NCBI GenBank assembly: GCA_031270685.1
Contig: JAISXA010000250.1
Coordinates: 1 to 35,345, forward strand
Direction: 5' to 3'
Origin: Planctomycetota bacterium
Lineage (GTDB): Bacteria; Planctomycetota; SZUA-567
DNA: 35,345 nucleotides
The notes under the pieces are model-generated. The model was not told the origin of the DNA, did not search any database, and saw only the letters and a list, made by a program, of their open reading frames with translations. The translations under genes were made by a program, and so were the position numbers. Below are positions 5,224-35,345 of this stretch, in pieces; position 1 is the first letter of the stretch; each line of letters begins with the position of its first letter.

Positions 5224-5263
5224 TTACGGAAAACCGGGCCGGCCGCCGCCCGATTCCCCGTAA
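5224..5263. repeat. Hairpin-family unit: TTACGGAAAACCGGGC-[CGGCCGCC]-GCCCGATTCCCCGTAA
   Basis: 16-nt arms pairing at 13/16 positions. Loop related to CAACCGCC. Intergenic between hppA and mnmG. Confidence 0.65.
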
Positions 5264-5271
5264 ATTTACAA

Positions 5272-5300
5272 ATTGGGCATTCGGCGGTTGAATGCCCAAT
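5272..5300. repeat. Hairpin-family unit: ATTGGGCATTC-[GGCGGTT]-GAATGCCCAAT
   Basis: Perfect 11-bp arms around loop GGCGGTT. Confidence 0.8.
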
Positions 5301-5416
5301 CGGCGAAACTCCGGTTTCCATACATGATAATTCCGCGTTCCTTGCGGTCAAGGGGGATTTGGCGGATTGCGCGGTCCGGCGTCCGCATGACGCCGCCTCC
5401 CCGGCCGGGAACGACC

Positions 5417-7210: not shown

Positions 7211-7275
7211 GTTCGATTTCCTCCAAAAGTCCACTTATTAAAGGAAACCGCATTTCCCTTCAAAAGTCCACTCTT
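7211..7275 (-). repeat. Two tandem GTGGACTTTTG(G/A)AGG boxes upstream of mnmG
   Basis: Minus strand reads GAGTGGACTTTTGAAGGGAAATGCGGTTTCCTTTAATAAGTGGACTTTTGGAGGAAATCGAAC-GTG. AAAGGAAA/TTTCCCTT forms a small hairpin between the boxes. Confidence 0.65.
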
Positions 7276-13354: not shown

Positions 13355-13552
13355 GTCAACTTTTGGAGGAAATCGGGCCAACCGCCGCCCGATTTTCTCC
13401 AAAGATGTTACCGCTTACGGGCCAATGGGTTGGTTTTCCGTCAGGTCGGGCGATACCGCCGACTTTGCAATAATTCCCGACGGGAAATGGAACCACAGGA
13501 AACTTTGGAGAGAAGCAAACGGCGGTTTGTTTGATTTTCTCCAACCGTCCAC
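13355..13552. repeat. Composite element copy A: two inverted hairpin units flanking a conserved ~100-bp core
   Basis: Hairpin 1 TTTGGAGGAAATCGGGC-[CAACCGCC]-GCCCGATTTTCTCCAAA (13362-13403). Hairpin 2 TTGGAGAGAAGCAAAC-[GGCGGTTT]-GTTTGATTTTCTCCAA (13505-13544). Core shared with 34148-34358. Confidence 0.85.
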
Positions 13553-13648: not shown

Positions 13649-13736
13649 GTCCTTTTTTCAATTTTTTTTGCCAAGTGCTCAGTCAGCGTTGAAATTGGGG
13701 TGTTTTTGAATGTCGCTTGGCGGGTCGACTTTTAGC

Positions 13737-13772
13737 GAAGGAAATTAATCGTGGGTTCGATTGATTTTCTTC
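13737..13772. repeat. Hairpin-family unit overlapping the znuB stop: GAAGGAAATTAATCG-[TGGGTT]-CGATTGATTTTCTTC
   Basis: 15-nt arms with 13/15 pairing. Minus strand preceded by GCGGACGTTTGAAGAAAATC, related to the GTGGACTTTTGGAGAAAATC box. Confidence 0.6.
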
Positions 13773-14584
13773 AAACGTCCGCTCACATATATCAATACGA
13801 TAAGATAGCACGCCACATTCGCCGCCACCACACTGGCGCCGACCGGCCAATCGAGCGCGAAGGATCCGGCCATTCCGGCCGCAAAGCAGACGACGGAGAT
13901 GATCGCGGCGAAAACCGCCATGCTCCTGAACCCGGTCGCCAAACGGCGGGCGGTGACGCCGGGGAAGATGATAAGGCTGGAAATGAGGAGCGTCCCCATC
14001 ATCCGCATGCCCACCACCACGGTCAACGCGGTGAGAAAGGAGATAAGGAACTGGTAGAAGGCGAGATTGACGCCGCCGGCCCGGGCGAAGGTTTCATCGT
14101 AGGCGACAAGAAACAGGCGGTTGTAAAAAAGTATGAACAGAAGCAGCACCGTCAGCGCGAGACCGATGGAGAGCCAGGCGTCCGCCCGGCTGGTGGCGAG
14201 GACGCTTCCGAACATATAGTCGTATACGTCGACGTTGAAGCCTTTGGTGCGGGCGGCGACGATCACCCCCAGCGCCAGCGCCCCGGTCGAGGACACGCCG
14301 ATCGCCACATCGCCGCTCGCGCCGTAGCGCTGGCTCACCAGCATGATGACGAAGGAGGCGGCGATCACCACGGGCGCGGAAAACAACAGCGGGGAAAAGC
14401 CCAGCGCCAGGCCGATGGTGAGCGAAGCGAAGCCGACATCCGCCAGCCCGTGGCCGATCAGGGCATAGCGCTTGAGGACGAGCACCATCCCCAGGAGCGA
14501 AGCGCACAGCGAAACCAGCGTTCCCACCAAAAAGGCGCGCTGCACGAACGGCAGGGCAAGGGCGTCGAGAAACCCGGCCATCAT
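13745..14584 (-). CDS. znuB: Metal (Zn/Mn) ABC transporter permease, ABC-3 family
   Basis: FVQRAFLVGTLVSLCASLLGMVLVLKRYALIGHGLADVGFASL and LLISSLIIFPGVTARRLA. Next to ATPase and SBP genes. Confidence 0.9.
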   Translation of the reverse strand: MMAGFLDALALPFVQRAFLVGTLVSLCASLLGMVLVLKRYALIGHGLADVGFASLTIGLALGFSPLLFSAPVVIAASFVIMLVSQRYGASGDVAIGVSSTGALALGVIVAARTKGFNVDVYDYMFGSVLATSRADAWLSIGLALTVLLLFILFYNRLFLVAYDETFARAGGVNLAFYQFLISFLTALTVVVGMRMMGTLLISSLIIFPGVTARRLATGFRSMAVFAAIISVVCFAAGMAGSFALDWPVGASVVAANVACYLIVLIYVSGRLKKINRTHD

Positions 14585-20025: not shown

Positions 20026-22233
20026 TCATCCCGTTCCCTTGAACAGGTGGAATATGTCGTAGCCGGTCACCGTGAGCATCAGCGTCAGCAGACAGACCAA
20101 GCCCACCCATTGCGCCGCCTCGCGCACGATCCGCGGGGTGGGACGGCCGATGATCCACTCGACCAGCAGGAATGCGAGATGGCCGCCGTCCAGCACCGGG
20201 AAGGGCAGCAGGTTGCACACCCCGAGATTGACGCTGATGAGGGCGACTATGTAAAGGAAGTAGGCGAAACCGCGATCGTCGGCGATCTTGATGATGCGGA
20301 ACAATTGCACCGGGCCGCCGATCGCGTCCAGCGGAAGGGCGCGGACGACCAGTTTGTGGATGACGCGATAAACCATGAGCGAGAGGTCCACCCATTTCCG
20401 CCCGGCGGCCGCGACCGCGGGGAGGAACGGGAGGGGAACGACGGTTTCGGCGGTTTTCAGCGATACGGGAAGCCTGCTTCTGAGGCCGGCGGCGAGCGGC
20501 GCGTCCATAACGGATTCGGGGGTTTTCGCGGTCAGCCGCTTGACCGCGAATCCGCCCTTGCCGTCGGGAAACGCCAGGCCCAGGGTAACCGCGGCGAGAT
20601 CCGGGGAATAATGGAGCATCGACAATCTGCCGCCCCGCAGGCTCGCCAGGCCGCCGAGTTCGCGGTCCGCGAAGCTGTCCGGCTCGACGGCGACCACCGG
20701 CCCCTGGGCGAGATCGACGCCGAGCATCGGACGGCGGTATTCGTCCAGAATGCGCGGCGCGATTTCGATGACCAGGTTGGCGTCCCGCAGCTCCGGAATC
20801 GGGTCGCGGAACCCCCCGTCCTCCGCCGGCCGCTGCACATAATAGCGAACCTTTTCCGATGCCGCGTCCTCGACCAGCTCGCGGAGCGACATGCCGTCGG
20901 GAAGCGGGCGGTCGTTGATGCCGACCAGGCGGTCCCCGGGGCGGAGCACGCCGTCGGAGGGAGAGTCTGGCCGCACGCCGTCGACGCGGAAGCCGCCGTC
21001 GCCCTCCATGCCGCCGACGACGCCAAGGAGCGAATCCGTCTCCGGATCCGCCGCCGCCGATCCCGGCATGAATTCGGGCCTGACGATGGCGAATTTTTCC
21101 TTGTCGTCGTGGATGAAATTGAGCTTGACGCAGCGCAGGGCCGAACTGTTCACCACCTCCTGGAAATCCTTCACCCGGGAGAAGCGCAACGGCCCGGGAT
21201 CATCGGGGCGCCGATAGGCGACCACCAGGTCGCCCGGGCGGAACCCCGCCTGGTCCGCCGGACCGCCCGCCATTACGTTGAGGATGTTGATGCCGACCCG
21301 CAGTCCCATATCCCATTCGCCGTACGTTTCGAGCGGCACGCGGACGTCTCGGAGCGCCTGGTCGCGGCCGTCGCGGATGGTGAGGTCGACCATTTTCCCC
21401 GGCTGATTTTCGAGCATTCCGGGGAGCAGATGGCCCATGCTTTCCGGAATTTCGACGCCGTTCACGGCAAGGATTTCGTCGCCGACCGCGATCTTCCCCT
21501 TCAACGTTTCGGCGAAGGCGGGATCGTCGACGACCCCGGCGATGACGCGGGAGCGCGCCGGTTCCGCGCCGATGGTGTTGAGGTTGCCCCGGAGGGCGCT
21601 CGCCCTGCCCTTGACCCGGAAAACAAGCTCTTCCACTCCTCCTTCCGGAACCGCCCTGGCGACCCGGATGTCCACCTCGCCGCCGGCCCCGGAAAGGGCC
21701 ACCGCCTCGGCGGCCTCCTCGAAGGATTCGACCCCCTTCCCGTTCACCGCCAGGATCCGGTCGCCGGATTTAAGCCCGTGGACGGCGGCGGGGCCGGTAG
21801 GATCGAGCGCGCCCAGCGTGGCGGGAATGAAGGGAATGCCGTACCTATAGGCGGCGACGAGCACCAGGAACCCGAAGATGAAGTTCAAGATCACGCCGCC
21901 GGCGAAGACCAGCGCCCGCGCCCGGAGGGGCTTTGAATACAGCTCGTCCGGCGCGCCGGTTCGCTGTTCCTTGCGGGGATCGTCGTTCTGCCCGGCCAGC
22001 GCGCAATAACCGCCCAGCGGGAGAATGCCGATGCCGTACACGGCGCCCCGGTATTCCTTCTTGAGGGCGAGCCCGAAAATGTCGAACCCGATGAAAAACC
22101 GCTCGACCCTGACTCCGGTGAGGATCGCCGCCAGATAATGGCCCAGTTCGTGAACGAAGATCAGCACGGAAAACGCGACCACCACCACCGCGATCTGGGG
22201 GATGGCGCCAAGAATTGAGGCGAGGTAGCTCAT
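20026..22233 (-). CDS. rseP: Site-2 protease (RseP/M50 family), enlarged 735-aa form with apparently four PDZ-like modules
   Basis: FVHELGHYLAA zinc motif and NLLPFPVLDGGHL. Four GDxIlavNg-like segments between the catalytic halves. Confidence 0.92.
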   Translation of the reverse strand: MSYLASILGAIPQIAVVVVAFSVLIFVHELGHYLAAILTGVRVERFFIGFDIFGLALKKEYRGAVYGIGILPLGGYCALAGQNDDPRKEQRTGAPDELYSKPLRARALVFAGGVILNFIFGFLVLVAAYRYGIPFIPATLGALDPTGPAAVHGLKSGDRILAVNGKGVESFEEAAEAVALSGAGGEVDIRVARAVPEGGVEELVFRVKGRASALRGNLNTIGAEPARSRVIAGVVDDPAFAETLKGKIAVGDEILAVNGVEIPESMGHLLPGMLENQPGKMVDLTIRDGRDQALRDVRVPLETYGEWDMGLRVGINILNVMAGGPADQAGFRPGDLVVAYRRPDDPGPLRFSRVKDFQEVVNSSALRCVKLNFIHDDKEKFAIVRPEFMPGSAAADPETDSLLGVVGGMEGDGGFRVDGVRPDSPSDGVLRPGDRLVGINDRPLPDGMSLRELVEDAASEKVRYYVQRPAEDGGFRDPIPELRDANLVIEIAPRILDEYRRPMLGVDLAQGPVVAVEPDSFADRELGGLASLRGGRLSMLHYSPDLAAVTLGLAFPDGKGGFAVKRLTAKTPESVMDAPLAAGLRSRLPVSLKTAETVVPLPFLPAVAAAGRKWVDLSLMVYRVIHKLVVRALPLDAIGGPVQLFRIIKIADDRGFAYFLYIVALISVNLGVCNLLPFPVLDGGHLAFLLVEWIIGRPTPRIVREAAQWVGLVCLLTLMLTVTGYDIFHLFKGTG

Positions 22234-22372
22234 TATGCGACGTTTCCTTCAAAAGACCGCCAAAAGACCGCTTTTCGGCGAAGCCGGACCTGTGACCAGT
22301 TCAGTTGCCGGCGGCGGTCAAAGCGGCATATTGTACCCGAACGGCGGACACCGGAAAAGAAGATTCACGCTC

Positions 22373-25680: not shown

Positions 25681-25704
25681 AGTGGACTTTTGAAGGAAAT
25701 CAAA

Positions 25705-34070: not shown

Positions 34071-34147
34071 ATGTTTATCGCATGAATTCATAGTATCCCG
34101 GGATTTCCCGCTTTGTCGGGAGAAAATAAAAAAAACTCTAAAACAGT

Positions 34148-34358
34148 GGACTTTTGGAGAAAATCGGGCCAACCGCCGCCCGATTTCCTCCAAAGATGTC
34201 ACTCCAAAGATGTCACTGCTTACGGACCAATGGGTTGATTTTTCGCCCTGTCGGGCGATAGCGCCGACCTTGCAATAATTCCCGACGCAAAATGTAAACC
34301 CAAGAAACTTTGGAGAGAATCAAACGGCGGTTCGTTTGATTCTCTCCAAAAGTCAACC
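34148..34358. repeat. Composite element copy B: two inverted hairpin units flanking conserved core
   Basis: Hairpin 1 TTTGGAGAAAATCGGGC-[CAACCGCC]-GCCCGATTTCCTCCAAA (34153-34194). Hairpin 2 TTTGGAGAGAATCAAAC-[GGCGGTTC]-GTTTGATTCTCTCCAAA (34309-34350), perfect 17-bp stem. Core includes GCTTACGG.CCAATGGGTTG and TTGCAATAATTCCCGACG, shared with copy A. Confidence 0.88.
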
Positions 34359-34389
34359 GGAAAGACATCCTCGAAAGCCCGGTCGCGGT

Positions 34390-35345
34390 ATTTCAATCGC
34401 CTTTCACCTGCAAGGGAGATTCTCGGGTTAACGGCAACATTACGCTTAATTTCCCTACCGTGGATCTCAATCGCCTTTCGGCTGTGGGGGAGATTCTCGG
34501 GGTGGAGAATTTCGCCGACGACCTGTTCCGGCAATACCGAGTCTCAATCGCCTTTCGGCTGTGGGGGAGATTCTCGGCGGCACCGGTTGTTCGAAACCAA
34601 CTTCCCGCTTGCGGGTCTCAATCGCCTTTCGGCTGTGGGGGAGATTCTCGGCTTGTCGGCACCGGTCTTGGATCGTTGCTCGGAGGACGTCTCAATCGCC
34701 TTTCGGCTGTGGGGGAGATTCTCGGATCCCGCGAAATATTTCTCTTCGGTGGACGACCTCCGCGTCTCAATCGCCTTTCGGCTGTGGGGGAGATTCTCGG
34801 GTCGTTTCGACGACGCCACCGACGCCTGGGAGCGCGTGTCTCAATCGCCTTTCGGCTGTGGGGGAGATTCTCGGAGCGATACTGGCTGGTATATCCGTTT
34901 TAACCGCTGCGAGTCTCAATCGCCTTTCGGCTGTGGGGGAGATTCTCGGCTCGAGGCGGCCGGACATCTCGCGCATCGCCTCGGGTCTCAATCGCCTTTC
35001 GGCTGTGGGGGAGATTCTCGGTTGGCACTATATCTTCTGCTGTTGGCAGGAGTGATTAGTCTCAATCGCCTTTCGGCTGTGGGGGAGATTCTCGGCGCCG
35101 CCGCGAACAAGAAAAGCCTTAACCTCGTGGAGTGGTCTCAATCGCCTTTCGGCTGTGGGGGAGATTCTCGGCCGCCAACAGCGTGCCAATGCCGACTGGG
35201 ACGAGTACGGTCTCAATCGCCTTTCGGCTGTGGGGGAGATTCTCGGTCTGTTTGCGTTACAGGGTGTGCAACTCCCCCCCGAGCGTCTCAATCGCCTTTC
35301 GGCTGTGGGGGAGATTCTCGGAAAACGATGGATGCAATCACCCGT
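34390..35345 (-). CRISPR. CRISPR array, 13 repeats (first degenerate) and 12 complete spacers, continuing beyond the window
   Basis: 37-bp repeat GTCTCAATCGCCTTTCGGCTGTGGGGGAGATTCTCGG starting at 34390 (degenerate), 34464 (1 mismatch), 34541, 34615, 34689, 34764, 34838, 34913, 34985, 35059, 35135, 35210, 35285. Spacers 35-40 nt and all different. Strand inferred from the 3' ATTGAGAC tag on the reverse complement and the degenerate repeat at the left end. Confidence 0.98.

Follow-up and report, generated by a model that had tools for sequence, protein, structure and literature searches.

The repeated hairpin elements of about 200 bp found in this DNA are very probably MITEs, most likely moved by a DDE-type, IS701-like transposase acting in trans. 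They make up a new MITE family (family I), unusual in the architecture of its ends, and this Planctomycetota genome carries well over a hundred copies of it. The window, i.e. the whole stretch of 35,345 nucleotides that we analysed, is the entire contig C256 of an assembly of 3.18 Mb in 283 contigs, 89% complete (hereafter the source genome). A sequence-only reading of the window had proposed that the elements were MITEs, REPIN/BIME elements or structured RNAs. The first option was the right one: we found terminal inverted repeats (TIRs), 5-bp target duplications, a high copy number and an intergenic bias.

That reading had described two composite elements, and both copies, their hairpins, loops, order and TIRs were borne out by the sequence. 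We place their limits at 13355-13552 (copy A) and 34146-34357 (copy B), one to two bases away from those first given. The family-I body is 198 bp long and has inverted ends, GTGGACTTTTGGAG..CTCCAAAAGTCCAC, each of which folds on itself in the order outer arm, loop AACCGCC, inner arm. The TIRs are 14 bp long (GTGGACTTTTGGAG / CTCCAAAAGTCCAC across 31 aligned copies) and the inverted arms span 50 nt with 78% complementarity. In copy B a tandem duplication of 14 bp inside the body brings the length to 212 bp. The features of the two window copies are the following.

34146..34357, + strand: full family-I MITE, copy B, 212 bp, with TIRs at both tips.
34146..34159, + strand: left TIR of copy B, GTGGACTTTTGGAG, an exact match to the family consensus.
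34152..34195, + strand: left end hairpin of copy B, loop CAACCGCC, from sequence, fold and pair counts over 104 copies.
34188..34215, + strand: 14-bp tandem duplication, CTCCAAAGATGTCA twice, in copy B only among the 31 aligned copies.
34308..34351, + strand: right end hairpin of copy B, loop GGCGGTT, from sequence, fold and pair counts over 104 copies.
34344..34357, - strand: right TIR of copy B, reading inward GTTGACTTTTGGAG, with 1 mismatch to the consensus.
13355..13552, + strand: full family-I MITE, copy A, 198 bp, with degenerate tips (2 mismatches each).
13361..13404, + strand: left end hairpin of copy A, loop CAACCGCC, from sequence.
13503..13546, + strand: right end hairpin of copy A, loop GGCGGTT, from sequence.

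We then searched the source genome for further copies. When up to one mismatch is allowed, the 14-nt tip has 461 matches (252 + 209), against 0 + 1 for the reversed-pattern control. Two copies were therefore a large undercount. A search with the element returned 479 candidates, and among the best 40 of these, which were scored, copy B is 87-91% identical to the next-best 39. The 1.61 Mb of the genome that we examined yielded 104 full copies, which are 190-216 bp long, along with 38 isolated palindromes (about 56 bp) and 77 members of a second family described below; this sample was chosen partly by matches, and its densities are not directly scalable to the whole genome. The distribution among relatives is narrow. 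A family-I 20-mer matches 310 times in the source genome, 9 times in a congener (G001) and 22 times in a genome of the same family (G012), and has zero matches in 58 other relatives, i.e. 3 of the 61 related genomes are positive. Exact family-I matches in the genome collection point to the Planctomycetota MAGs Ct408_bin81 and Nc350_bin29, which we take from their isolate names to be termite-gut MAGs. The nearest named relatives of the source genome appear to be termite-gut bacteria. Searches of plasmids, phages and viral contigs gave no similar DNA.

The insertion sites carry a clear signature of mobility. Analysis of the target sites, which the sequence-only reading had proposed along with a count of copies, revealed an exact 5-bp duplication in 26 of the 101 full copies with both flanks (mean of 0.55 and maximum of 5 for shuffled flanks). 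In 6 of these 101 copies the tips are bordered by a perfect 6-bp direct repeat, against a mean of 0.08 for shuffled flanks. Overall, the target duplication is retained in only about a third of the copies, and in neither of the two in the window. Duplications of 5 bp likewise flank 5 of the 38 single 56-bp palindromes (0.26 expected), and one end alone has therefore been inserted. Full copies rarely lie within genes: only 4 of 104 are inside ORFs of at least 200 aa, versus 3062 of 4000 random placements (77%). The outcome that the sequence-only reading had held against itself, two copies only and no mobility signature, is clearly not what we observed.

The second family (family II) came to light when 1.29 Mb was scanned without bias for hairpins with a stem of at least 13; of the 368 such strong hairpins, 271 have GGCGGT or ACCGCC at the loop. 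Family-II elements are about 134 bp long, have the tip CTGRASTTTTGCAAA, and contain the hairpins TTGGGCATTC-AAACCGCC-GAATGCCCAA and GGCGATT-GGCGGTTT-AATCGCC, almost always in that order. When the tip is set 1 base outward, 12 of 76 copies have 4-bp duplications and 7 of 76 have 5-bp duplications (1.1 and 0.5 expected, respectively). The family is found in the same three genomes as family I, with 166, 1 and 2 matches. The two families have related tips (TG-A-TTTTG) and the loops AACCGCC/GGCGGTT in common, with different stems, and common descent of the end module is the simplest reading. Family II also clarifies a shorter hairpin pair noted earlier at 5224-5300. The pair is real, but it is not a third copy of the element: a degenerate family-I hairpin abuts a family-II end.

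5224..5264, + strand: degenerate family-I-like hairpin, loop CGGCCGCC, from sequence and repeat comparison (60%).
5270..5314, + strand: truncated family-II MITE end, stem ATTGGGCATTC, loop GGCGGTT, matching the family-II alignment.

The loop heptamer AACCGCC recurs in different stems. It is conceivable, if rather improbable, that AACCGCC/GGCGGTT is a selected recognition site and that the 56-bp palindrome is the minimal transposing unit, of which the longer elements would be pairs. The heptamer could then act as a cruciform or as a single-stranded hairpin bound by the transposase or by a host factor. The common heptamer raises a testable question, that of how such ends are recognised.

The 198-, 134- and 56-bp forms are too small for a transposase ORF. 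The probable motor of the MITEs is an IS701-like insertion sequence (IS) of about 1.4 kb. An all-against-all ORF comparison revealed no high-copy transposase, which is explained by the collapse of IS interiors out of the assembly. Most of these interiors appear to be absent from the source assembly, presumably because repeats collapse and short contigs go unbinned, and contig ends were therefore clustered. This gave a left IS end, GTGGACTTTT[C/G]GAAATTTTGC, which closes four contigs of the source genome; three of the four sequences are identical and the other is at 99%. They read GTGGACTTTTCGAAATTTTGCAGTCGGA... and lead to ATGCC(A/G)GAA. The right IS end, GTGGACTTTTTGAAATTATGCGGCC..., encodes a C-terminus ending in ITIIQELLVNALAWAA, as read by translation. 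The interior is missing from the source assembly, and no intact IS copy was read in it. A pattern search with flanks retrieved five left and four right IS ends in the source genome, whose flanks include two exact 5-bp pairs, AAGTA/AAGTA and ACTCA/ACTCA; at least two common 5-mers were obtained in 54 of 100,000 random draws.

Pieces of the transposase were found in other genomes. An N-terminal fragment from G005 matches the NCBIfam model NF049999 (IS701 family transposase) with E=1.1e-5. In G001, a 744-bp piece (C35:1-744) corresponds to positions 161-408 of the model (E=1.9e-36), with the right tip at C35:789-821, and in G014 contig C158 corresponds to positions 9-240 (E=3.2e-40). All NF049999 matches are partial, and none of these pieces reaches the curated cut-off of the model, 170 bits. 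The IS is present in the source genome, G001, G011, G012 and G014, which include all three MITE-bearing genomes. The IS701 family is reported to have 4-bp duplications in almost all elements and the tip consensus ---YACT-Y (PMC2266710). We call the partner only IS701-like because its 5-bp duplication and its tip GTGGACTTTT differ from these. A search among open papers, a scope that misses most subscription journals, turned up nothing on a pairing of IS701 with MITEs.

A transposase supplied by this IS is the most likely mover of the family-I MITE. The ten outermost bases of IS and MITE are identical and both have a 5-bp target duplication. The identity is confined to about 10-13 terminal bases; the AACCGCC palindrome is missing from the ends of the IS. 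So short a common tip might be convergent or coincidental, in which case a transposase other than the IS701-like one would move the MITE; we consider this unlikely, given the exact match of the outermost ten bases, the same duplication length and the occurrence of the IS in all three MITE-carrying genomes. Searches for other transposases point the same way: rve transposases (PF00665) have no match in the source genome, and no PF01609 match is flanked by the MITE tip as an IS end. PF01609 has 7 matches, including IS1380-like copies (family assigned by eye), whose own ends lack the MITE tip. One is interrupted by a MITE; in L172, at 120-314, such a MITE lies within the remnant of an IS1380-like transposase (family again by eye). 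Wide TIR pairs of 2494 and 2091 bp have imperfect ends, and a tblastn search of plasmids with the transposase fragment gave weak matches only. In a third type of end, the interior next to the family-I hairpin differs and contains TATAAT. These ends may come from an autonomous element that has not been seen, and would then favour another transposase.

Contig ends C2, C39, C17 and C71 (L075 1-118, L082 13991-14108, and the 3' ends of L202 and L203): third end type, with a 76-bp interior identical at all four.

We first took this end type for an autonomous element and rejected it as such: its interior has no clear reading frame and may enter another hairpin. It may represent another MITE or some longer element.

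A structured RNA, transcribed and acting via its hairpins and a kissing loop, is a very unlikely alternative to a MITE. The predicted folds of the two window copies are very stable relative to shuffles (z of -6.6 and -5.8), some stem pairs change together, e.g. from G-C to A-T at 12/45, and the loop heptamer is common to the second MITE family. However, copy A is predicted to pair its two ends with each other rather than to make two separate hairpins, and a search with Rfam covariance models gave 0 matches at gathering score. As no Rfam family matches, the reading as a known RNA fails. The loops are perfectly complementary in 37 of the 104 family-I copies, while in 35 the left loop is AACCACC and the right loop GGCGGTT is unchanged; the compensating right loop GGTGGTT is found opposite AACCACC in none of the 104. 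Hence, the kissing-loop fold proposed from the sequence is not conserved, since about a third of the copies have lost the complementarity and show no compensating change, and a kissing-loop function was rejected on this table of loop variants. Across the 104 copies, the stems show uncompensated A.C mismatches, 37 at pair 15/42 (left) and 49 at pair 16/41 (right). Associated changes are found at pairs 11/46 and 12/45 and, on the right side, 23/34, and can be explained by subfamily descent and correction within palindromes. The sequence-only reading had itself cautioned that complementary loops follow from inverted duplication. This caveat was sound: the predicted loop-loop contact is a by-product of the inverted duplication, not a conserved feature.

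The RAYT/IS200-type transposase that the sequence-only reading had suggested looking for was not found: the RAYT/Y1 family (PF01797) has 0 matches in the 89%-complete source genome, and the same search was positive in 5 of 14 control genomes. Insertion by Y1 transposition of the IS200/IS605 type leaves no target duplication. In the REPIN/BIME reading, a RAYT, which is a Y1 tyrosine transposase, moves paired REP hairpins in single-stranded form. This reading is very unlikely and is largely refuted, since despite inverted hairpin doublets, high copy number, intergenic location, GGAG beside each stem and the precedent of REPINs as inverted REP doublets with compensatory changes (PMC3116915), no RAYT/Y1 transposase was found in the source genome, the copies have 5-bp target duplications, the hairpin does not include the outer TIR tip and the same tip is carried by a probable partner that is DDE-type and IS701-like.

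As a MITE, family I is a short non-coding DNA transposon, with a 198-bp body and 14-bp TIRs, presumably mobilised in trans. Each end is palindromic, running from the tip through the loop AACCGCC to the tip sequence in inverted form. Both tips would be cut by a DDE-type transposase, and insertion would take place mainly between genes by 5-bp staggered joining. The IS701-like transposase would recognise the tip common to IS and MITE and act there. The inner, inverted tip sequence may give the transposase a second contact, or else be a relic of two fused 56-bp units. The paired loops would have no role as a kissing contact.

The window also contains fragments of these repeats next to genes.

7221..7234, - strand: half MITE end (GTGGACTTTTGGAGGAAATC and similar), directly upstream of mnmG, with GGAGG in the Shine-Dalgarno position.
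7258-7271, - strand: second half end unit.
22247-22271, - strand: half MITE end, possibly upstream of the frame 20026-22233.
25682-25704, + strand: half MITE end, with its unit at 25682..25695, directly upstream of the ATG start of a 459-codon frame.
13724..13782, no strand assigned: degenerate lone palindrome of the 56-bp class, which runs into the 3' end of a gene for an ABC-3 transporter, 13745-14584(-).

The half ends upstream of start codons place GGAGG or AAGG in the Shine-Dalgarno position, and the palindrome at 13724-13782 apparently supplies the last codons and the stop of the transporter gene. About 30 bp from copy B begins a CRISPR array (34389-35345) with 13 repeats of 37 nt, GTCTCAATCGCCTTTCGGCTGTGGGGGAGATTCTCGG, spaced by 72-77 nt; its first repeat is degenerate and the array runs off the contig end. 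The repeat is absent from the other loci examined. Elsewhere, L073 11500-20000 and L166 1-9500 are two diverged copies, within a single genome, of one multigene cluster, in which one ORF resembles, by eye, a conjugation ATPase.

Full copies alone account for about 2% of the DNA sampled, and the repeats probably break the assembly at many contig ends. The fragments at ribosome-binding positions and at a gene end indicate that the intergenic regions of this lineage have been shaped by repeats. The case ties an IS701-like insertion sequence to MITEs, and it illustrates that transposons with hairpin ends are enough to produce a kissing-loop layout that looks like that of an RNA.

Several known systems resemble these elements in part. 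REPINs and BIMEs with their RAYTs (PMC3116915, PMC2817692) are also inverted hairpin pairs, extragenic, modular and at high copy number, but here a RAYT was not found, target duplications are present and the TIR tip is outside the hairpins. The GTAG/CGTC palindromic repeats, with double palindromic TIRs (PMC3733652), are likewise palindromic TIR repeats spread as families; unlike them, our elements lack a GTAG or CGTC tag, and a tyrosine transposase was not found. The partner resembles the IS701 family (De Palmenaer et al. 2008, PMC2266710) in that the transposase pieces have partial matches to NF049999, the inferred length is about 1.4 kb and the tip GTGGACTTTT fits most of the consensus ---YACT-Y, but position 4 of the tip is G instead of Y, the duplication is of 5 bp instead of 4 bp and the protein was seen in pieces only. 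A further parallel is with the bacterial MITEs such as Correia, Chunjie and QMITE (reviewed in PMC10969869), which are non-coding, 100-400 bp long, have TIRs and target duplications, depend on IS transposases, and occur in tens to hundreds of mostly intergenic copies, including truncated and composite ones. In contrast with bacterial MITEs in general, each family-I end is a complete palindrome with a common AACCGCC loop, the lone 56-bp end palindrome occurs with target duplications, and the probable partner is IS701-like.
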